A stretch of 64,000 bases of DNA from Microbacterium aurantiacum. GTDB lineage: Bacteria > Actinomycetota > Actinomycetes > Actinomycetales > Microbacteriaceae. Every line of letters begins with the position of its first letter. Positions within the stretch are counted from its first letter, which is position 1. The stretch lies in contig NZ_JAJPDW010000005.1 in assembly GCF_021654035.1 (NCBI RefSeq), positions 1 to 64,000 of the forward strand, read 5' to 3'. The notes under the pieces are model-generated. The model was not told the DNA's origin. It worked only from the letters and a program-made list of their open reading frames with translations, and did not search any database. The position numbers and the translations under genes are program-made. Below are positions 32,094 through 41,588 of this stretch, piece after piece.

Positions 32094-33294
32094 CGCGTCC
32101 GAGTGCGGCGAGGCGTCCGGACGCTTCGCGGAGGACGTCGACCCGCTTGCATGCCGCGAACCGCAGCATCGTGGCGTAGCGATCGCGGTGTGCGGGGGTG
32201 ACGAAGGCGGTGAGCGGGATGGCCACCACTCCGGCGCGTTCGGGCAGCGTCCGGCAGAACGCGGCGGCATCGCGCACGCCCAGGCCTTCGGCATCCGCCA
32301 CGGTGAAGTAGGACCCCGCGGGTGGTGTCACCGTGAAGCCCGCTGCGCGCAGCCCCTCACCGAGAAGTCGTGCCTTCGCGTGCATCGCCGCGGCGAGTCC
32401 GTCGAAGAAGGCCTGCGGGAGTCGGAGGCCGGCGGCGATCGCAGGCTGGAACGGGCTGCCGTTGACGTAGGTGAGGAACTGTTTGACGGCGAGGATCGCG
32501 TCGATGAGTTCGGGGGACGCGGTGACCCATCCGATCTTCCACCCCGTCACGGAGAAGGTCTTGCCCGCGGAGGAGATCGACACCGTCCGCTCGCGCGCAC
32601 CGGGCATCGTGGCGAGGGGTACGTGCGGTCCCTCGAACACGAGGTGCTCGTAGACCTCGTCGGTCACGACCACCGCGTCGTGCCGTTCGGCGAGGCGGAG
32701 CACCTCCGCCCGCACCTCCGCGGTGAACACCGTTCCGGTGGGGTTGTGGGGGTCGTTGACCAGGATGATCCGAGTGCGGTCCGTGACGGCGTCCCGGAGC
32801 ACCTGGAGGTCGGGCTGGAAGGACGGCGCCACCAGAGGCACCGGGACGAGGCGCGCTCCGGCCATCGCCGCGGCGGCGGCGTACGAGTCGTAGAACGGCT
32901 CGAAGACGACCACCTCGTCGTCGGGGCCGTCGACGAGCGCGAGCAAGGTGGCCGTGAGCGCCTCGGTGGCCCCGGCGGTGACGAGCACCTCGCGTTCCGG
33001 GTCCACCTCCCACTCGTAGAAGCGCCGGTGATGCTCGGCGATCGATACCCGGAGATCGAGGATGCCGCGTCCCGGCGGATACTGATTGCCGCCGTCCGAG
33101 ATGGCTCGGCGCGCCGCCTCCAGGACCACGCCCGGACCGTCCTCATCCGGGAAGCCCTGCCCCAGGTTGATGGCGCCGGTTCGGCCCGCGAGTGCGCTCA
33201 TCTCGGCGAAGATGGTGGGATGCACCGTTCCGTCGGTCCCCAGGAGTCCTGCTCCCGCGGCGACGCGTCGCCAGCCCCCGGTCACTTCGTGCAC
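32077..33294 (-). CDS. Class I/II PLP-dependent aminotransferase
   Basis: A 405-residue fold-type I aminotransferase. INLGQGFPDEDGP, NQYPPGRGILDLR, VTAGATEAL, NDPHNPTG, VVTDEVYEHL and the PLP-lysine segment SSAGKTFSVTGWKIGW are typical of the kynurenine/glutamine/methionine aminotransferase group, which also includes actinobacterial DapC-like enzymes. The substrate is not decided. GTG start with AAAGGA 7 nt upstream. It converges on the nitrilase-family gene, a pairing found for glutamine transaminase and omega-amidase in many genomes. Confidence 0.88.
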   Translation of the reverse strand: MHEVTGGWRRVAAGAGLLGTDGTVHPTIFAEMSALAGRTGAINLGQGFPDEDGPGVVLEAARRAISDGGNQYPPGRGILDLRVSIAEHHRRFYEWEVDPEREVLVTAGATEALTATLLALVDGPDDEVVVFEPFYDSYAAAAAMAGARLVPVPLVAPSFQPDLQVLRDAVTDRTRIILVNDPHNPTGTVFTAEVRAEVLRLAERHDAVVVTDEVYEHLVFEGPHVPLATMPGARERTVSISSAGKTFSVTGWKIGWVTASPELIDAILAVKQFLTYVNGSPFQPAIAAGLRLPQAFFDGLAAAMHAKARLLGEGLRAAGFTVTPPAGSYFTVADAEGLGVRDAAAFCRTLPERAGVVAIPLTAFVTPAHRDRYATMLRFAACKRVDVLREASGRLAALGRVSSAG

Positions 33295-33408
33295 AGCCGC
33301 ATCCTTTCGACGTGCTCACGATGTTCGCATAGTCCGGTCCCACTCCCGGCATAAGCAATCCACAGGATCGGCGACGACAGTGGATCACGCCAGGAAGAAG
33401 GAGCACCC

Positions 33409-34857
33409 ATGAACGATCCGCAGGACGCAGAGCCCATCGACCGCCCCACGGACCCGACGTCCGCGACCGAGGGCATCACGAACCCCGCGGTGCCGCCGCG
33501 TCCTCCGCTGCCGCCGCAGACCGGCTACGCGCCCCCGCAGGGATACGTCCTGCCCGGCGCCGTTCCGCCGCACGCCTCGGGCGCGGCGACCCCGACCGGA
33601 CCCGCGGCGACCATCCCGATGGACTTCGCCGCGACCGCGGCTCCGGCGCCGGCACCCGCTCCGCGTCGGACCTCCGCGGGCGCCGTGGTCGGGCTCCTCG
33701 TGGCCGCGGCGGTCGTCGGTGGCGCCGCGGGCCTCGGAGGCGCCTACGCGGGCGTGAACCTCTTCTCGACGTCGGCGTCCGCGCCGGCATCCGGGCCGGT
33801 GTCGGTGACGGTGAACGACACCGACAGCGTCACCGAGGCGACGGGGATCGCCGCTCGCACACTGCCGAGTGTCGTGACGATCTCGGCGAGCGGGACCAAT
33901 GGCAGCGGCTCCGGTTCCGGTGTCATCCTGAGCGCCGACGGATACGTGGTCACCAACACGCACGTCGTCACGCTCGACGGTGCCAGCGCGGATGCCTCCA
34001 TCCGTGCCACGACCTCGGACGGCCAGGTCTTCGATGCCGAGATCGTCGGCACCGACCCCACCTACGATCTCGCCGTGATCAAGCTCGACGGAGCAGCGGA
34101 TCTGACGCCGATCGAGTTCGCCTCGTCGGCCGATCTCAACGTCGGCGACACCACGGCGGCCGTGGGCGCGCCGCTCGGGCTCTCCAACACCGTCACCACC
34201 GGAATCGTCAGTGCGCTGAACCGGTCCATCGCGATCGCGTCGGCGGCGGCGCCCGAGACGCCCGATGCGGAGGACGGCGAGCAGCAGGGCGAAGGGGACG
34301 CGCCCTTCTACTTCGACTTCGGCCAGGGACGCACGACGCCCGGTTCGGGCGAGACGATCTCGATCGCGGTGATCCAGACCGACGCCGCGATCAACCCCGG
34401 GAACTCCGGCGGCGCGCTGGTGGACAGCGAGGGGCGCCTGATCGGCATCAACGTCGCCATCGCCTCGGCCGGCGGATCATCCGGGCAGGCGGGCTCGATC
34501 GGGGTCGGCTTCGCCATCCCGTCTGACATCGTCCAACGCATCGCCGAGGAGATCATCGACACCGGCGCGGCGACGCACGGTCTGCTCGGTGCCAACGTCC
34601 GCTCCGCGGCATCCGTCGAGGGCTCGCAGATCACCGGCGCCTACATCCAGGAGGCCGTCGCCGGTGGCGCCGCCGAGGCGGCAGGCCTTCGCCAGGGCGA
34701 CATCGTGACGGCGTTCAACGGCGTACCGATCTCCAACGCCACCGATCTCACCGCGCAGGTGCGCGCCGCCGCCGCCGGCAGCACGGCGACGGTGACCTAC
34801 GTCCGGGGCGATGCGACCGAGCAGGTCGACGTGACCCTGGGCACGCTCGGAGGCTGA
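33409..34857 (+). CDS. Membrane-anchored HtrA-like trypsin-fold serine protease with PDZ domain
   Basis: A 482-residue HtrA/DegP-type protease. A Pro-rich cytoplasmic N-terminus (about 1-85) is followed by one membrane helix (about 88-115), the protease domain and a C-terminal PDZ domain (about 390-480). The catalytic triad is His185 (NTHVVT), Asp220 (YDLAVIKL) and Ser333 (NPGNSGGAL). It should degrade or process misfolded envelope proteins. AAGAAGGAG precedes the ATG, so the mRNA has a leader. The gene downstream begins at a hairpin that may also terminate this transcript. Confidence 0.93.
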   Translation: MNDPQDAEPIDRPTDPTSATEGITNPAVPPRPPLPPQTGYAPPQGYVLPGAVPPHASGAATPTGPAATIPMDFAATAAPAPAPAPRRTSAGAVVGLLVAAAVVGGAAGLGGAYAGVNLFSTSASAPASGPVSVTVNDTDSVTEATGIAARTLPSVVTISASGTNGSGSGSGVILSADGYVVTNTHVVTLDGASADASIRATTSDGQVFDAEIVGTDPTYDLAVIKLDGAADLTPIEFASSADLNVGDTTAAVGAPLGLSNTVTTGIVSALNRSIAIASAAAPETPDAEDGEQQGEGDAPFYFDFGQGRTTPGSGETISIAVIQTDAAINPGNSGGALVDSEGRLIGINVAIASAGGSSGQAGSIGVGFAIPSDIVQRIAEEIIDTGAATHGLLGANVRSAASVEGSQITGAYIQEAVAGGAAEAAGLRQGDIVTAFNGVPISNATDLTAQVRAAAAGSTATVTYVRGDATEQVDVTLGTLGG

Positions 34858-34866
34858 CCCGCACGG

Positions 34867-34903
34867 CGCCGCCACCCCGCGATAGGCTCGCGGGGTGGCG
34901 GCG
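34867..34903 (+). promoter_or_regulatory. 15-bp inverted repeat enclosing -10 box and start codon
   Basis: Arms CGCCGCCACCCCGCG and CGCGGGGTGGCGGCG are a perfect 15-bp match around the 7-nt loop ATAGGCT, which holds the TAGGCT -10 box. The right arm includes the GTG start codon at 34895. It can act as terminator for the htrA transcript, as promoter for the next gene, and as a start-codon-masking hairpin in read-through RNA. Confidence 0.75.
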
Positions 34904-36163
34904 TTCTCCTTCGGTTCGGGCAACGCGCGCAAGATCGTCGCTCTTCCCCTCTATGCGGCGGGACGGCTCCTGACCGCCCTCGTTCCCCGGCGTCACGACA
35001 TGTGGGTGTTCGGGTGCGCGACCGGCGTCGGAGAAGGCGCGCTGGCGCTGTGGCAGCAGGTGGCACCGCGGCATCCGGCGCTGTGGCTGGTCGATGACGA
35101 CACGCAGGCACGCGACGCTGCGCGGCTGGGGGTGAGGGCGGTGAGGAAGTCCTCCGTCGCCGGGCTGTGGGCGACCGCCCGCGCGGGCGTCGTCGTGATC
35201 ACGCACGGGTTCGGCGACGTGCACCGCTACGCCGTCTCAGGTGCGTTCGTCGTCCAGCTGTGGCACGGCATCCCCCTCAAGCGCATCGGTCTGGATTCGC
35301 CCGAGACCCTCCGCCCTCCGCGGTGGCTGGACCACGGAGCCTCGCGTCGGCTCTCGCGGCAACTGCTCGCGCTGATGTACCGCGCGGCTGCCTCCCGGAT
35401 CGATGTGATGCCCGCCGCCTCCGGGCTCGTCCGCGGGCGATTGGTCTCCGCGTTCGGAGTGCGGGACCACGTCGTCGTGGAGACCGGTGAGCCCCGTGTG
35501 GACGTTCTGAGCACCGGCGACGCGCCGACACGCCGCGCCGCGGCGCGCGAAGCGATCCTCCGGGCCGCCGGTGCGGAGGGATCCCCGTCCGCGGTCGTGC
35601 TGTACGCCCCCACGTGGCGGGACGGCGCGCCGGACCCGGCGGTGCCCGGCCCGGCCGATTGGCACGCGATCCTCGACGTGCTCGAACGGCGGGATGCCGT
35701 CCTTCTCGTCAGGTCTCATCCCTTGGGCTCCGGGGAGTACGCTCCGCCGGCACCGACGACCCGCGTCCGTGCCGTCCCGTCGGCGGTGGTCCCGGACATC
35801 ACGCCGTTGCTTCCGGGGATCGACGCCCTCATCACCGACTACTCATCGCTGGTGTACGACGCCGCGCTCGTGCCGCTTCCCGTCGTCTTCCTCGCGCCCG
35901 ACGTGGAGGAGTACGCCGAACGCCGGGGCTTCTACGGCCGGTACGAGGATGTGGCGGGAAGCGACATCGCGCGTTCCTGGCATCAGGTTCTGCCCGTCCT
36001 CGACGCGGTGCTCGATCCCGCGACAGGGGAGTCGGAGCGTCGTGTCGCGCGCAGCCGGCGTCTGAGCGACCGCGTCCACCGGCATCGCGACGGGCGCAAC
36101 GCCGAGAGGGTGTACCGTGCCGTGATGGCGCGCCGCGGGCGCGCGACAGAGGGAGATCGATGA
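34895..36163 (+). CDS. CDP-glycerol:glycerophosphotransferase family protein (TagB/TagF-like)
   Basis: A 422-residue glycosyltransferase-fold enzyme of the CDP-glycerol:poly(glycerophosphate) glycerophosphotransferase family, which builds alditol-phosphate cell-wall polymers. Conserved segments: QLWHGIPLKRIG, VLYAPTWRDG, RSHPLGS and the C-terminal DALITDYSSLVYDAALV. It is soluble or peripheral with a hydrophobic N-terminus. The GTG start follows TAGGCT by 6 nt. It overlaps the next gene by 4 nt (ATGA), so the pair probably acts in one polymer pathway. Confidence 0.86.
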   Translation: MAAFSFGSGNARKIVALPLYAAGRLLTALVPRRHDMWVFGCATGVGEGALALWQQVAPRHPALWLVDDDTQARDAARLGVRAVRKSSVAGLWATARAGVVVITHGFGDVHRYAVSGAFVVQLWHGIPLKRIGLDSPETLRPPRWLDHGASRRLSRQLLALMYRAAASRIDVMPAASGLVRGRLVSAFGVRDHVVVETGEPRVDVLSTGDAPTRRAAAREAILRAAGAEGSPSAVVLYAPTWRDGAPDPAVPGPADWHAILDVLERRDAVLLVRSHPLGSGEYAPPAPTTRVRAVPSAVVPDITPLLPGIDALITDYSSLVYDAALVPLPVVFLAPDVEEYAERRGFYGRYEDVAGSDIARSWHQVLPVLDAVLDPATGESERRVARSRRLSDRVHRHRDGRNAERVYRAVMARRGRATEGDR

Positions 36164-37611
36164 CGCAGGCCCGCTTCGACACCGAGGGCGAGCTGACGCT
36201 CGTCCTTTCCGGAACCGGCGCGAGGCCCGCGCGCGCGGAACTCGTCGGGCCGCGCGCGCGCGTGTCGGCGACGCTCACGGGACGAGGGAAGACCTGGAGG
36301 GCGGTTTTTCCGCTCCGTGCGTCGAAGTGGGGTGGGCCCGAGCTCCCGCTGCCCACCGGCGAGTACGCGGTGGTCGTCGTTCCTTCGTCCGAGGCCGACT
36401 CTCCCTCGCCCGTCGACGACGTTCCCCTGGCCACCGGCGCCCTCCTGCGCGCCGAGCTCCGCGACGGTGTCGTGCACGTGGGGCCGCCCCTCGACCCCGC
36501 CTATGATTCGGGCGAGGGCCAGGCGGCGTTGGAGCGGCGCTATGCGACGCGCACGACGCCCCTCGAGAACGCGGTCTTCTTCGAGAGCTTCTACGGACGC
36601 AACGCCGGGTGCAATCCGCTCGCCATCGATCGTGAGCTGGCAGGGGTGGCCCCGCACGTCGTCCGCTACTGGAGCGTCGTCGACCACTCGGTCGTGGTTC
36701 CCGACGGCGCGGTCGCGGTCGTGGAGGGGAGCCCCGAATGGTGGCGAGCCCGAGGCGCCGCGCGACTGCTCGTCGTCAACGATTGGCTGCGACGCCGATT
36801 CGCCCGACGCCCGGGGCAGCGCGTGCTTCAGACCTGGCACGGAACCCCGCTGAAGCGCCTCGCCCTGCACCGACCCGGCTTCGACCCGCGGCGGATGCTC
36901 GCCGTGGCTCGCGAATCGTTGCGCTGGAACGTCCTCCTCGCGCAGAACGCCTACGCGGAGCGGATCCTCCGCAAGGCCTATGCCTTCCTCCGCCGCCCGA
37001 TCTGGGTCGAGGGCTATCCGCGCAACGACGTGCTCGTCACCGGCGACGGCACCGGCATCCGTCGCATGCTGGGGATCGGCGATGAAGAGCGCGTCCTGCT
37101 CTACGCCCCCACCTGGAGGGACGACCGCTCCGAGATGGTCGACTTCCTCGACCCGGCCGCGTTCGCCCGCGAGACGGACGCCGTCGTGCTGGTGCGCGGG
37201 CACTCCCGCACGCTGCTGCCCGGGAGGGACGTCGAGGGGCCCCGGGTGATCGACGTCACGGGCTTTCCGGACACCGCCCAGCTGCTTCTGGCCGCGGATG
37301 CCCTCATCACCGACTACTCGTCCGTGATGTTCGACTTCTCCGTCACCGGGCGCCCCATGTACTTCCTGGTGCCCGACATCGAGCACTACCGCGGCGAGCT
37401 CCGCGGCTTCTACTTCGATCTGGCCCGGCACGCGCCCGGTCCTCTGCTCGGATCCGCGTCCGAACTCGTTGAGGCCATCCGCCACGGCGATCCGGGGGAG
37501 TTCGCCGAGCGCTACGAGCGATGGCGCGCGCGCTTCAACTCCCGCGACGACGGCATGGCGGCGGAGCGCGTGGTCGCGCGCATCCTCGACCAGGGATTCG
37601 TCGAGCGCTGA
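36160..37611 (+). CDS. CDP-glycerol:glycerophosphotransferase family protein (TagB/TagF-like)
   Basis: A 483-residue member of the same family with an extra beta-rich N-terminal domain of about 110 residues. The catalytic part has TWHGTPLKRLALH, VEGYPRNDVLV, LLYAPTWRDDR, RGHSRTLLPG and ITDYSSVMFDFS, closer to canonical TagF than its neighbour. It probably polymerises or primes glycerol- or ribitol-phosphate. GAGGGA precedes the ATG, which overlaps the upstream stop. The stop lies 2 bp from the stop of the convergent glycosyltransferase gene. Confidence 0.88.
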   Translation: MTQARFDTEGELTLVLSGTGARPARAELVGPRARVSATLTGRGKTWRAVFPLRASKWGGPELPLPTGEYAVVVVPSSEADSPSPVDDVPLATGALLRAELRDGVVHVGPPLDPAYDSGEGQAALERRYATRTTPLENAVFFESFYGRNAGCNPLAIDRELAGVAPHVVRYWSVVDHSVVVPDGAVAVVEGSPEWWRARGAARLLVVNDWLRRRFARRPGQRVLQTWHGTPLKRLALHRPGFDPRRMLAVARESLRWNVLLAQNAYAERILRKAYAFLRRPIWVEGYPRNDVLVTGDGTGIRRMLGIGDEERVLLYAPTWRDDRSEMVDFLDPAAFARETDAVVLVRGHSRTLLPGRDVEGPRVIDVTGFPDTAQLLLAADALITDYSSVMFDFSVTGRPMYFLVPDIEHYRGELRGFYFDLARHAPGPLLGSASELVEAIRHGDPGEFAERYERWRARFNSRDDGMAAERVVARILDQGFVER

Positions 37612-37613
37612 CC

Positions 37614-38720
37614 TCAGGGCAGCGGTGTGTTCCGCTGTCCGAGACGTGACGTGTCGACGGTGTCGTCGGCGCCGCGGAGGACCCCGACGAGGAAGCCGGC
37701 GCCCCATGCGAGGTGCATCGTCGGAAGGACCGCTGCTGTCCATAGCCGGTCCCGCCAGCCGGTACCGCCGCCGCGGCCGAGCGCGACCGCGACGATCAGC
37801 ACGATGTAGGCCGCGATCGGAAGGTAGACGAGGGAGGCGATCAGGCCGACGGTCCCGGTGACCAGTCCCGCGGCCTGGGCGACGCCGACGAGGAGCGCCA
37901 GGACCAGATTCAGCACCAGGAGCGGGGGAGCGAAGAACCGCACCGAGTTCCCCCGCCCGAACCGTCGCACCAGTTCGCCACGCCAGCGTCCGGTGGCCAC
38001 GAACTGGCGTGCGAGGCGGGACCAGCTCTCGCGCGGCCAATACGTCACCGAGAGATCAGGGTCGAACCACACCCGGTATCCCGCTCGACGGATCCGGAGG
38101 TTCAGCTCCCAGTCCTCGCCCCGACGGATCGACTCATCGAAGCCGCCGACCTCCTCCAGAACAGATCGTCGGAGAACCCCGAGGTACGCGGACTCGGCCT
38201 CGCCCTCGACGGTTCCCCCGTGGTAGGCGCCGCCGCCCAGGCCGAACGGGGAATTGTAGGCGCGTGCGACCGCTCGCTGGAACGGGGTCCGCCCTTCGGC
38301 CCGCATGACGCCGCCGACGTTTGCGGCGCGGACCCGTGCCAACGTCTCCAGCGCGCGCAGGGCGTAGCCGTCCGCGAGTTCCGAGTGCGCGTCGACGCGG
38401 ATGATCGTCGGGTAGCGGCCCGTGCGGATGGCGAGGTTCAGGCCCACGGGGATGTCGGCGGCCGGGTTGGCCACGAGCACGATCCGCGGGTCAGCCGCTG
38501 CGAGTTCCCGAGCGAGTTCCGTCGTCCCGTCGGTGGACGGACCGAGGGCGAGGATCAGCTCGATCGGCCCGCCGGTCTCCTGCGCGAGAACGGACTCGAC
38601 CGCACGGCGCAGATAGCCGCGCTCGTTCAGCACGGGCATGACGTACGAGACCCCCGCGTCCGCGCGGACCACTGGAGCATCGCGTCGGCCGTCGGATTCG
38701 CGCTGCACGCGTCCGATCAT
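37614..38720 (-). CDS. Family 2 glycosyltransferase with C-terminal membrane helices
   Basis: A GT2 glycosyltransferase of about 368 residues (379 if the upstream GTG at 38753 is used). The GT-A core has YVMPVLNERGYLRRAVESVL, PSTDGTTEL, IIRVDAHSEL (the DxD-like metal site), GGVMRAEGRTPF and the RRGEDWELNLRIRRAG motif. About three membrane helices follow near residues 265-350. It should add a sugar to a lipid-linked or wall-polymer acceptor. The donor is unknown. The start is uncertain: the ATG at 38720 leaves a short divergent gap for promoters. Confidence 0.82.
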   Translation of the reverse strand: MIGRVQRESDGRRDAPVVRADAGVSYVMPVLNERGYLRRAVESVLAQETGGPIELILALGPSTDGTTELARELAAADPRIVLVANPAADIPVGLNLAIRTGRYPTIIRVDAHSELADGYALRALETLARVRAANVGGVMRAEGRTPFQRAVARAYNSPFGLGGGAYHGGTVEGEAESAYLGVLRRSVLEEVGGFDESIRRGEDWELNLRIRRAGYRVWFDPDLSVTYWPRESWSRLARQFVATGRWRGELVRRFGRGNSVRFFAPPLLVLNLVLALLVGVAQAAGLVTGTVGLIASLVYLPIAAYIVLIVAVALGRGGGTGWRDRLWTAAVLPTMHLAWGAGFLVGVLRGADDTVDTSRLGQRNTPLP

Positions 38721-38759
38721 GTCACGCGCATGCCGGCGGCTGCGGTTCGGCACGGTCGG

Positions 38760-38765
38760 TAGGCT
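38760..38765 (+). promoter_or_regulatory. -10 box TAGGCT, leaderless start
   Basis: TAGGCT, six bases, then the GTG at 38772. Confidence 0.6.
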
Positions 38766-38771
38766 CGAAGC

Positions 38772-40061
38772 GTGGGTGTGCTCTCAGACGTCAAGAAGAC
38801 CGTCGCGCTCGTGCGCAAGGCGCTGGACAACCGATCGGCGGCCGTCCACGTCCGGCGTGAAGCGGCTCGTCTGGGTGGGCATCCACGATCCCATTTCCGG
38901 GTTGCGGTGTACTTCGCCGACGGCGATGTGAACATGTACCAGATGCGGCAGTGGTACAAACCGCTCGCCGAGCTCGCCCGCACCTGGCCGGTCGTGGTGC
39001 TGAGCCGGTCGGCGACGGGTGCGCGGGCGCTGATGGCGGAGGACGCGCCGCCGGTGGCCTTCGTCCCGACCGTGCGCGACGTCGAGCGCTTCCTCGCGAC
39101 CCAGGAGATCCGCGTCGTCCTCTACGTGAACCAGAACACGCGGAACTTCCAGATGTTCCGCTACGGCCGCCGCTGGCACGTCTTCATCAACCACGGCGAG
39201 TCCGACAAGATGTACATGACGACGAACCAGTACAAGGCCTACGACTACGCCCTGGTAGCCGGCCAAGCCGCGCGCGATCGGCTGTCCCGCGTCCTCTGGG
39301 ATTACGACGTCACCACACGGACGATCGAGATCGGTCGTCCCCAGGCGGATCATTACTCCGGGGTGTTGCCCTACACGCCCGACGATCGCATCGTGGTCCT
39401 CTACGCGCCCACGTGGGAGGGGGATCGTCCTTCCGCGCACTACGGATCGATCCTCAGCCACGGCGAGTCCCTCGTGTCTGCGCTTCTGGCGACCGGACGC
39501 CATCGCGTCGTGTACCGCCCGCATCCGCGGTCCGGCGTGGTTTCGCCCGCCTACGGCCGTGCGCACCAGCGGATCGTCGCGGCGATCGCCGCCGCCAACG
39601 CCGCGGATGCGCGCGCTCAGCACGTGTACGACGACGGGCCCGAGCTGGGCTGGCAGCTCTCCTCGGCGGATGTCGCGGTCGTGGATGTGTCGGCGATGGT
39701 CTACGACCGCCTGGCGGCGGACAAGCCGCTGCTCATCACGCGCCCGGTCGACCCCGAGGCGGTCGTCGACACGCACGGGTATCTTTCGGACTGCGAATGG
39801 CTCGATGCGTCGCGGTCCGCCGACTTCGTCGGGGACATCGACCGTGTGCGGACCGACCCGGCAGCCGTCGCGAAGCTCGCGCACTGGGTGCACCACTACT
39901 TCGGCGACACCGCGCCGGGCTCGTCCACGCGCCGTTTCCACGCCGCGATCGGTTTCCTCATGACCGAATGGGAACGCTGGTATGCGGCGTCCGCTGATGC
40001 GTCGAGCGCGACGGACGGCGACGAGGACGAGGCTGAGCTCGAGGACGGCGCAGAGACCTGA
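38772..40061 (+). CDS. CDP-glycerol glycerophosphotransferase family protein, divergent
   Basis: A 429-residue protein with the GT-B-like layout of the glycerophosphotransferase family but degenerate motifs: FINHGESDKMYMTTN replaces the WHGTPLK loop and VVDVSAMVYDRLAADKPLL replaces TDYSSVMFD. VVLYAPTWEGDR and YRPHPRSG are preserved. It may transfer a different alditol phosphate or sugar. A short acidic tail closes the protein. It is divergent from the GT2 gene and converges on the kinase gene 9 bp away. Confidence 0.78.
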   Translation: MGVLSDVKKTVALVRKALDNRSAAVHVRREAARLGGHPRSHFRVAVYFADGDVNMYQMRQWYKPLAELARTWPVVVLSRSATGARALMAEDAPPVAFVPTVRDVERFLATQEIRVVLYVNQNTRNFQMFRYGRRWHVFINHGESDKMYMTTNQYKAYDYALVAGQAARDRLSRVLWDYDVTTRTIEIGRPQADHYSGVLPYTPDDRIVVLYAPTWEGDRPSAHYGSILSHGESLVSALLATGRHRVVYRPHPRSGVVSPAYGRAHQRIVAAIAAANAADARAQHVYDDGPELGWQLSSADVAVVDVSAMVYDRLAADKPLLITRPVDPEAVVDTHGYLSDCEWLDASRSADFVGDIDRVRTDPAAVAKLAHWVHHYFGDTAPGSSTRRFHAAIGFLMTEWERWYAASADASSATDGDEDEAELEDGAET

Positions 40062-40070
40062 CCCCGCACC

Positions 40071-41474
40071 TCACCCGCGATCGGACGGGGAGGAGACGCC
40101 GGCGATGAGCCGCTCGACGGCCCCGAGCGGGATCTCCGTCCACGCCGGCCTGTTGCGTACCTCGTAGATCGCCTCGTAGACGGCCTTGTCCATCTCCAAC
40201 GCCGTCAGCAGGGCCGCCACTGTCGTCAGGTCCACGAAGGATGCGGCGGCGTATCCCCGCAGGAAAGACTCGCGCGCCGTGCGGGCCCAGTCCCGGACGG
40301 CGAAGGCCTGGTCGGGACGCTCGAGTTCGACGGAGCCCGCGACGTAATCGAACGACCTCAGCATGCCGGCGACATCTCGCAGAGCGAGATCCGGAAGGGT
40401 GCGCTCGTCCATCGGCCGTAGCGGCTCTCCCTCGAAATCCAGGAGCACCCAGCCGCGGCCCGGTACCCGGAGGACCTGGCCCAGATGATAATCGCCGTGG
40501 ATCCTCTGCAACGCGGGCCACGGCAGCCTCAACGCCGTCGCGTACACGGCCTCGATGTCCGAGCGCCATGGCGAGAGCGCAGGCACCTCGTCGAGCGCGA
40601 TGGACAGGCGGCGGTTCCAGGCGGCCGCGACGGCGTCGCGCTGGGCGGGGGTGCATTCCTGCTGCGGGAACAATCGCGCGAGCGCGACGTGCACATCGGC
40701 CGTCGCGATGCCGAGCTCTTCGGCCGCGGCGCGGAAGTCCGCGCCGGAGGCGGCGGCGTTCAGAGCGACGCGCCAAGCGTCCTGGACGCCGGGGAGGAAC
40801 TCCTGGGCGGAGGCGAGCGACCCGCGGACGACGCTCTCGGTGTCACCGGGGCTCGGCCAGCTGCCCTCGATCCATCCCACGGCCGCGGGGACGTGAGGTG
40901 AGCCGCCGGCCGCGAGAGCTCCGGCGAGCTCGATATCGGGATTGTGCCCCGGATGCAGCTGTCGATAGATCTTGCAGATGACGGGCATGGCCTCGGGCCC
41001 CTCGAACACAAGGGAGGTGTTCGACTGCTCGCCGGTCATCACCCGGTTCGTGCGCTGACGTTCATCGTGTGCGGCGGCAGGATGGCCTGTGGCTTGGGAC
41101 CCCGGCCCGATCGCGGTCCCTCCGCGGGTGACGAGGGAGAGGAGCACCTGCGCGTAGGCGTCGTCGTAGGGACCGTCCCGCAGGATCAGGTCCGGATCGG
41201 GCCTGCCGATCTCATGCGGATCGTCCGCCGCGACCTGCGGGGCCGCGCGCGCGACGACCGGCACCTGGTACAGGACGGCGGGGTCGGAAGCGTCGTCTGC
41301 GACGAGGTAGGTTCGGACGAAGAGGACCTGGTCCGCATCAGAGACGGATTCCGTCGGCCCAGCCGGCTCGAAGTCCCACCACGACACCATCCGCAGGCGC
41401 GGCGACCGCCCTTTGGTCGCGTACCAGCGTTGGCGCGGCATCCAGGCCGTCAGACATGCGAGCGTGCTGTCCAT
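40071..41474 (-). CDS. Maltokinase/glucosamine kinase-like phosphotransferase
   Basis: A 467-residue kinase of the APH fold with the N-terminal cap of maltokinases (MPRQRWYATKGR). The ATP-lobe motif is VMTGEQSNTSLVF, the catalytic loop RIHGDYHLGQVLR and the metal motif LLDFEGEPLRP, all intact. Related actinobacterial enzymes phosphorylate maltose (GlgE pathway) or glucosamine. No treS, glgE or glgB lies nearby, so the substrate is open; an amino-sugar kinase feeding envelope synthesis would fit its neighbours. The ATG follows TACGCT by 7 nt. Confidence 0.82.
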   Translation of the reverse strand: MDSTLACLTAWMPRQRWYATKGRSPRLRMVSWWDFEPAGPTESVSDADQVLFVRTYLVADDASDPAVLYQVPVVARAAPQVAADDPHEIGRPDPDLILRDGPYDDAYAQVLLSLVTRGGTAIGPGSQATGHPAAAHDERQRTNRVMTGEQSNTSLVFEGPEAMPVICKIYRQLHPGHNPDIELAGALAAGGSPHVPAAVGWIEGSWPSPGDTESVVRGSLASAQEFLPGVQDAWRVALNAAASGADFRAAAEELGIATADVHVALARLFPQQECTPAQRDAVAAAWNRRLSIALDEVPALSPWRSDIEAVYATALRLPWPALQRIHGDYHLGQVLRVPGRGWVLLDFEGEPLRPMDERTLPDLALRDVAGMLRSFDYVAGSVELERPDQAFAVRDWARTARESFLRGYAAASFVDLTTVAALLTALEMDKAVYEAIYEVRNRPAWTEIPLGAVERLIAGVSSPSDRG

Positions 41475-41481
41475 ACCCGCG

Positions 41482-41487
41482 AGCGTA
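41482..41487 (-). promoter_or_regulatory. -10 box TACGCT, leaderless start of kinase gene
   Basis: TACGCT, seven bases, then the ATG at 41474. This rejects the start ten codons further upstream. Confidence 0.6.
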
Positions 41488-41588
41488 GGCGGGGCGCGGC
41501 CCACGTGTCGAGCCGTGAGGAGGCCCTGGCGCAGTGGCCATGCACGGGCTAAGGTGACCTGCGCAATGCGCGGACCGTCGAGGAGGAG

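Follow-up and report, generated by a model that had tools for sequence, protein, structure and literature searches.

An inverted repeat between an htrA-like protease gene and a TagB/F-like glycerophosphotransferase gene of Microbacterium aurantiacum is likely the terminator hairpin of htrA, with the promoter and start codon of the next gene built into it. Termination of htrA is most likely the main function of the repeat. It is also the function that the comparisons below suggest is most clearly maintained by selection, while occlusion of the start codon in RNA that escapes termination may be a fail-safe. We propose that polymerase coming from htrA would transcribe both arms and that the RNA would form an 18-pair stem. 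Transcription would then halt at the stem or just past it, within the opening codons of the TagB/F-like gene. Separate initiation from the TAGGCT in the loop would give an RNA that begins at the G of GTG and does not include the left arm. In htrA RNA that escapes termination, the TagB/F-like start codon would be paired.

Geometry and uniqueness of the inverted repeat

We refer to the whole stretch of 64,000 nucleotides that was analyzed as the window. In it, htrA (33409 to 34857) is followed by a 37-nt gap and then by the first TagB/F-like gene (34895 to 36163). The features are as follows, in coordinates of the window.

33409 to 34857, plus strand: htrA-like serine protease gene (trypsin-like and PDZ), the upstream transcription unit (Pfam Trypsin_2, 4e-30; PDZ_2, 2e-14; open reading frame)
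34867 to 34881, plus strand: left arm CGCCGCCACCCCGCG, noncoding, predicted to pair with the TagB/F-like start region in htrA-derived RNA (repeat geometry, fold, covariation in relatives)
34882 to 34888, plus strand: loop ATAGGCT, in which TAGGCT (34883 to 34888) is the putative -10 box of the TagB/F-like gene (111 of 113 loci and 56 of 474 genes of the genus sample have TANNNT at 6 nt)
34889 to 34903, plus strand: right arm CGCGGGGTGGCGGCG, with the GTG start and codons 2 and 3 (repeat geometry; comparison of relatives)
34895 to 34897, plus strand: GTG start codon, where a leaderless mRNA is predicted to begin (6-nt spacing; predicted probability of being unpaired 0.00015 in read-through RNA and 0.64 in leaderless RNA)
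34895 to 36163, plus strand: first TagB/F-like glycerophosphotransferase gene (PF04464, 7.7e-50)
34904 to 34912, plus strand: TTCTCCTTC after the stem, with the codons of a conserved F-S-F and a possible weak U-tract (T content of tails)
36160 to 37611, plus strand: second TagB/F-like gene (PF04464, 7.9e-81; gene call)

The start of the second TagB/F-like gene overlaps the stop of the first, and the two may therefore be translationally coupled. The whole TagB/F-like cluster of the window (34895 to 40061) is flanked by htrA and by a maltokinase-like gene (40071 to 41504).

The original prediction of a perfect 15-bp inverted repeat with a 7-nt loop, and with the GTG at 34895 to 34897 inside the right arm, was correct. 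The left arm begins nine bases past the htrA stop (34857), and the arms CGCCGCCACCCCGCG and CGCGGGGTGGCGGCG are exact complements around ATAGGCT. The stem is longer than had been noted: A34882 and T34888 also pair, which brings the perfect pairs to 16, and the base is lengthened by two G-U pairs. The RNA minimum free energy of 34850 to 34930 was -49.9 kcal/mol (z = -3.7), and none of 200 shuffles reached so low a value. Perfect 15-bp arms with a loop of 3 to 10 nt occurred at a single place in the window (two registers of one repeat) and in none of 20 first-order Markov sequences.

We found the exact arms with a gap of 3 to 12 nt at one place in the 3.02-Mb genome, which rules out a repeated element. 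No known RNA family was recognized in 34600 to 35200: the sole Rfam match there (34642 to 34716, on the other strand) scored 19.9 bits, whereas the gathering score of the family is 71.

The loop holds a putative leaderless promoter

Simple sigma-70 and U-tract scans of 33000 to 37000 found nothing. Because the sigma-70 scan was empty, we based the -10 call for the TagB/F-like gene on genus statistics, using a sample of 861 kb from four genus genomes, the window included, with 728 called genes. Among the 474 genes preceded by a gap of at least 25 nt, 56 had TANNNT exactly 6 nt ahead of the called start and 21 had it at 7 nt, while each other distance up to 44 nt accounted for 0 to 7. The commonest hexamer was TAGGCT. 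The excess at 6 nt is a strong sign that leaderless genes are widespread in the genus.

A TANNNT 6 to 7 nt before the start codon characterizes leaderless actinobacterial promoters, and the window locus has one: its TAGGCT lies exactly 6 nt 5' of the GTG, the leaderless spacing of the genus. We found TANNNT at this distance in 111 of the 113 orthologous loci described below, and TAGGCT itself in 103. The two loci without it, L116 (Microbacterium sp. BR1) and L158 (M. lacus), have TAGGCT 19 nt upstream and also carry a GGAAAGGGG stretch resembling a Shine-Dalgarno leader. Together, the spacing in the genus sample and in the 113 loci makes a leaderless start at the GTG, from a promoter in the loop, well supported, and with it the proposal that the -10 box lies within the loop.

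The stem is conserved and covaries in Microbacterium

A match to the TagB/F-like gene was present in 50 of 59 genus genomes, our own included; that in G007 was weak. We compared the upstream regions of the other 49 genomes (the window and L032 included) and of 80 named loci, 129 in all, and obtained 113 distinct loci after removal of L122, where the start was not found, and of 15 duplicates. A stem over the start was called at a hairpin score of at least 24 and a loop below 40 nt. By this measure, 108 of the 113 loci have a strong stem over the start, and L094, L116, L135, L153, and L158 do not.

We counted start pairs and wobbles in 109 rows, with L094, L116, L135, and L158 dropped and L153 kept. 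All three bases of the start codon are paired in 107 rows. The partner base is C in all 86 rows with GTG (partners CAC, 72; CGC, 13; UAC, 1) and U in 21 of the 23 with ATG (CAU, 17; CGU, 4). The other two, L070 and L074, have ATG opposite CAC, a mismatch that leaves the first base unpaired, with a predicted probability of being unpaired of 0.34. Non-pairs were fewer at the start codon and codons 2 and 3 (14 of 981 cells) than near the loop (52 of 654). The distance between the arms ranges from 4 to 37 nt with the arms kept, and it is 55 nt in L153.

The original prediction proposed a search of related genomes for compensatory changes, and we found them in an ungapped alignment, in arm swaps, and in pairs on a tree. 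The ungapped alignment comprised 43 rows (33 distinct) from the 65 loci with a 7-nt loop. In it, six pairs were altered on both sides, against 0.9 in shuffles, and none of 500 shuffles reached six; sliding the partner by 1 to 3 columns lowered the paired cells from 88% to 38 to 60%. For the arm swap we used 110 rows, omitting L116, L135, and L158. Where right arms differed, a locus's own left arm paired in 14,976 of 17,606 comparisons and a swapped one in 6,962. The tree was built from 95 TagB/F-like proteins without their first 15 residues, and 18 loci with truncated genes were omitted. On it (91 rows), the start codon changed at least six times and its partner at least six times. All three supported independent start/partner pairs agree, although three are too few alone for significance. 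Summed over 15 positions, the independent pairs gave 19.5 that agree, 0.8 that oppose, and 12.7 with no partner change.

We also asked on which molecule the constraint acts. The 109 rows contain 60 G-U cells and 20 A-C cells. An A-C cell is a G-U pair on the opposite strand, and the threefold excess of G-U therefore fits a constraint on RNA read in the sense direction, with the sense RNA as the molecule that would fold.

Two records need a remark. L140 and L141 (M. stercoris NEAU-LLB), on two scaffolds of one record, are identical over at least 210 nt around the start, through duplication or assembly redundancy. L115 is a Microbacterium-type locus with the same hairpin in a record titled Planococcus, perhaps a mislabeled or mixed assembly.

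The hairpin probably terminates htrA transcription

The window locus has one of the features expected of an intrinsic terminator, a stable GC-rich stem soon after a stop codon. We surveyed 363 3' ends of genus genes with a gap of 30 nt or more and found GC-rich hairpins of this sort at 85, our own included, compared with 6 of 363 control stretches inside genes. Ten of the 59 genus genomes lack a full-length TagB/F-like match; all ten have htrA, and three of them are less than 90% complete. Three TagB/F-like proteins compared with these ten htrA loci gave no match in the locus. In every one of the ten, a stem of 14 to 22 pairs lies 5 to 41 nt after the htrA stop, and none has TANNNT in the hairpin loop. 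Thus, the stem does not depend on the presence of the gene, whereas the promoter does. These comparisons support the proposal that the element terminates htrA transcription.

In 7 of the 10 gene-less loci, a maltokinase-like gene on the opposite strand (convergent) is next to htrA. On an HtrA tree (FastTree, 123 rows), the gene-less genomes require five changes, four of them forced by supported branches. The TagB/F-like gene beside htrA thus appears to have been gained or lost at least four separate times.

Of 101 loci examined, only L011 has an extra hairpin in the stretch from the htrA stop to the left arm; the htrA stop was not resolved in 8 of the 113. After the stem, TTCTCCTTC has five T in nine positions, is protein coding, and shows no clear U-tract, and the canonical U-tract scan was empty. 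All 113 loci have at least four T in eight at positions +9 to +16, but the protein largely fixes this stretch. The tails of the genus hairpins are themselves T-poor, with at least four T in eight in 10 of 85.

The five loci without the standard stem bear on the same question. L116 and L158 have a separate hairpin between htrA and the promoter, L135 (M. album) has one directly 5' of the promoter, and L094 (M. kyungheense) has one in place of the arms. In L153 (M. azadirachtae), the 75 nt at most before the start hold a complete hairpin and then CTCTTTCC, and the right arm is copied again at the start, an arrangement that looks like a decoupling intermediate. That all five have a separate hairpin points to termination.

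The start codon is predicted to be buried in read-through RNA

The original prediction further held that the hairpin blocks translation of read-through RNA. We therefore compared the predicted probability that the start is unpaired in read-through and in leaderless RNA. Over the 113 loci, the medians were 0.0002 and 0.51, respectively. Thus, the start is predicted to be paired in RNA initiated upstream and far less so in RNA from the near promoter, the arrangement of the phage T4 type discussed below. In a sample of 134 leaderless-like starts, the window's included, the medians were 0.36 for read-through and 0.73 for leaderless RNA, and only 10 starts, the window's among them, fell below 0.01. 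Among the low-scoring starts that we inspected, L177:1514 and L200:8606 had weaker or different folds. Occlusion of the start in read-through RNA is therefore predicted to be near complete, strong, and unusual. However, a low probability is also expected of any terminator that overlaps a start, so the occlusion may be a by-product.

Another of the inspected low-scoring starts, L197:11829 (G054), is a further possible start-covering repeat, where an AT-rich inverted repeat is accompanied by TATCTT and by an ATG in the right arm at 6-nt spacing; the called gene start is 78 nt further on.

Long loops offer one way of weighing the two functions. Of the 19 loci with loops of at least 20 nt, 14 keep near-complete pairing over the start, and 12 of these 14 have an inner helix of at least five pairs; the five without start pairing are the loci with a separate hairpin (L094, L116, L135, L153, and L158). 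Such inner helices could terminate alone, and the outer pairs might then be dispensable for a pure terminator, yet 14 of the 19 loci keep them.

The exceptional loci set a limit on what was lost. In read-through RNA, the predicted probability that the start is unpaired was 0.10 in L135, 0.16 in L153, 0.15 in L158, 0.35 in L116, and 0.73 in L094. The low values in L135 and L153 arise through other partners, so that loss of occlusion there would mean that pairing with the near left arm is lost, not that the start is free. The start is mostly paired in the leaderless RNA of these two loci as well (0.12 in L135 and 0.005 in L153). For the translational proposal, occluding pairing is predicted and covaries, but it is absent from the five loci with separate hairpins. 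By the original prediction, related genomes with the same gene pair and no complementarity would refute the proposal. Such loci number 5 of 113 (L094, L116, L135, and L158, and L153 with respect to its near arm), and the other 108 keep the stem.

Alternatives to a terminator

The strongest alternative is a promoter-dependent translation gate, in which the left arm was selected because it conceals the start codon in htrA read-through RNA, leaving RNA initiated in the loop as the sole translated form. The covariation of the start codon with its partner, with at least six changes in each, agrees with it, as do the depth at which the read-through start is buried, uncommon among the sampled starts, and the start pairing retained at most long-loop loci. 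The better pairing of the coding half of the stem is a further point in its favor, although the protein constrains that half. However, the hairpin is also found in genomes that have no gene to gate, and the five loci with separate hairpins do without the standard stem over the start. We saw no clear Shine-Dalgarno sequence before the GTG by eye, so poor translation of read-through RNA would be expected in any case. L070 and L074 leave the first base of their ATG unpaired, and even in leaderless RNA the start is predicted to be unpaired only about half the time. We consider the gate rather unlikely as the explanation of the left arm, while noting that sequence alone cannot separate it from termination.

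A broader, genus-wide chromosomal switch would combine both functions. The TagB/F-like protein would be translated or silent according to the promoter that made the RNA, htrA RNA would be ended or silenced by the hairpin whose loop starts the leaderless TagB/F-like mRNA, and transcription of htrA under envelope stress would lower TagB/F-like synthesis through promoter crossing together with start occlusion. We put this forward as a tentative and rather unlikely reading. Overall, the original three-part interpretation is partly supported.

Another alternative is promoter interference. Transcription of htrA through the loop would silence the TagB/F-like promoter, envelope stress would lower TagB/F-like output, and the hairpin would limit the reach of the effect. 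The argument for it is geometric, since htrA polymerase crosses the -10 box before the stem is complete. It is compatible with the terminator explanation and does not exclude it, and as the explanation of the repeat we regard it as most improbable.

The near-perfect dyad is conserved and centered on the -10 box, as an operator would be if a regulator bound the palindrome over the promoter. The distance between the arms nevertheless varies from 4 to 37 nt with the arms kept complementary, and G-U cells are three times as frequent as A-C cells. Both observations disfavor a DNA operator, and the compensatory changes and the single copy in the genome also count against it. We find it scarcely credible. 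A chance palindrome in a GC-rich genome, of negligible probability, is refuted by its absence from all 20 random sequences and by a conserved stem over the start that covaries. The terminator hairpin with the next gene's promoter and start built in is the explanation that we prefer.

The arrangement appears particular to this gene and genus

We asked whether the genus uses such hairpins more widely. The 861-kb sample contains 240 co-directional genes preceded by a gap of 25 nt or more, and a strong start hairpin (score of at least 30, loop of at most 14 nt) occurred at just one of them, this locus itself. Among 423 leaderless-like candidates from the 80 named loci, 58 passed the cutoff of 24; 56 of these are this gene, one is an antisense reading of the same repeat, and one is weak. 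A general device of the genus is thus not supported.

At the loci examined outside the genus, the gene mostly lacks the arrangement. Of 249 family genomes searched, 68 had a match with an E value no higher than 1e-40, 64 of them outside the genus. We examined 26 loci of these 64 genomes, and starts were found by script in 23. Only one of the 23 has a stem over the start, and barely (L041, 24.5 against the cutoff of 24), compared with 108 of 113 loci in the genus. No htrA match was found in about 1.5 kb upstream of the gene at the 26 loci. The upstream gene is on the opposite strand in 16, on the same strand in 4, and unclear in 6.

Comparison with known systems

Our literature search, with most subscription journals outside its coverage, found no paper whose title describes this locus or arrangement, and a search on the overlap of a terminator with a start codon gave no match. 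The one paper found that mentions Microbacterium together with transcription start sites and leaderless genes is on Corynebacterium glutamicum. In IS10 and IS50, the transposase start region is masked in read-through RNA, which protects against outside transcription. Unlike the Microbacterium hairpin, these belong to mobile elements in which the end repeat supplies the arm, and the structure is not the terminator of a neighboring gene.

With their T-poor tails, the Microbacterium gene-end hairpins resemble the GC-rich terminators of Streptomyces, which are reported to have long stable stems, few U residues, and covariation in the hairpin consensus (PMC12207403). The hairpin studied here is unlike those described there in having a putative promoter in the loop and a start codon in the 3' arm.

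The closest precedent that we found is in phage T4 and its relatives. For I-TevI, the lysozyme gene e, segB, and Aeh1 mobE, two reports describe a hairpin in upstream-initiated RNA that covers the initiation region, and a nearer promoter, within or beside the structure, that gives a translated RNA without the 5' strand (PMC2988022, PMC3014915). The shared logic is that read-through RNA hides the start and near-promoter RNA exposes it. In T4, as reported there, a ribosome-binding site is hidden, the hairpin serves a developmental switch of the phage, and experimental tests are reported. The Microbacterium locus, in contrast, is chromosomal and probably leaderless; the start codon itself is predicted to be paired, and the hairpin is terminator-like. 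What is new with respect to T4 is the combination of a chromosomal terminator, a probably leaderless start, and genus-wide conservation. A terminator, a promoter, and a start codon appear to be packed into about 40 bases, and nearly all loci keep the stem with compensatory changes. If the terminator part alone is true, the locus remains a clear example of a terminator and a start codon evolving together. If the translational part is also true, the locus would represent the T4 type of hairpin on a bacterial chromosome and would provide a way to ask how leaderless genes behind an active gene stay silent in read-through RNA.
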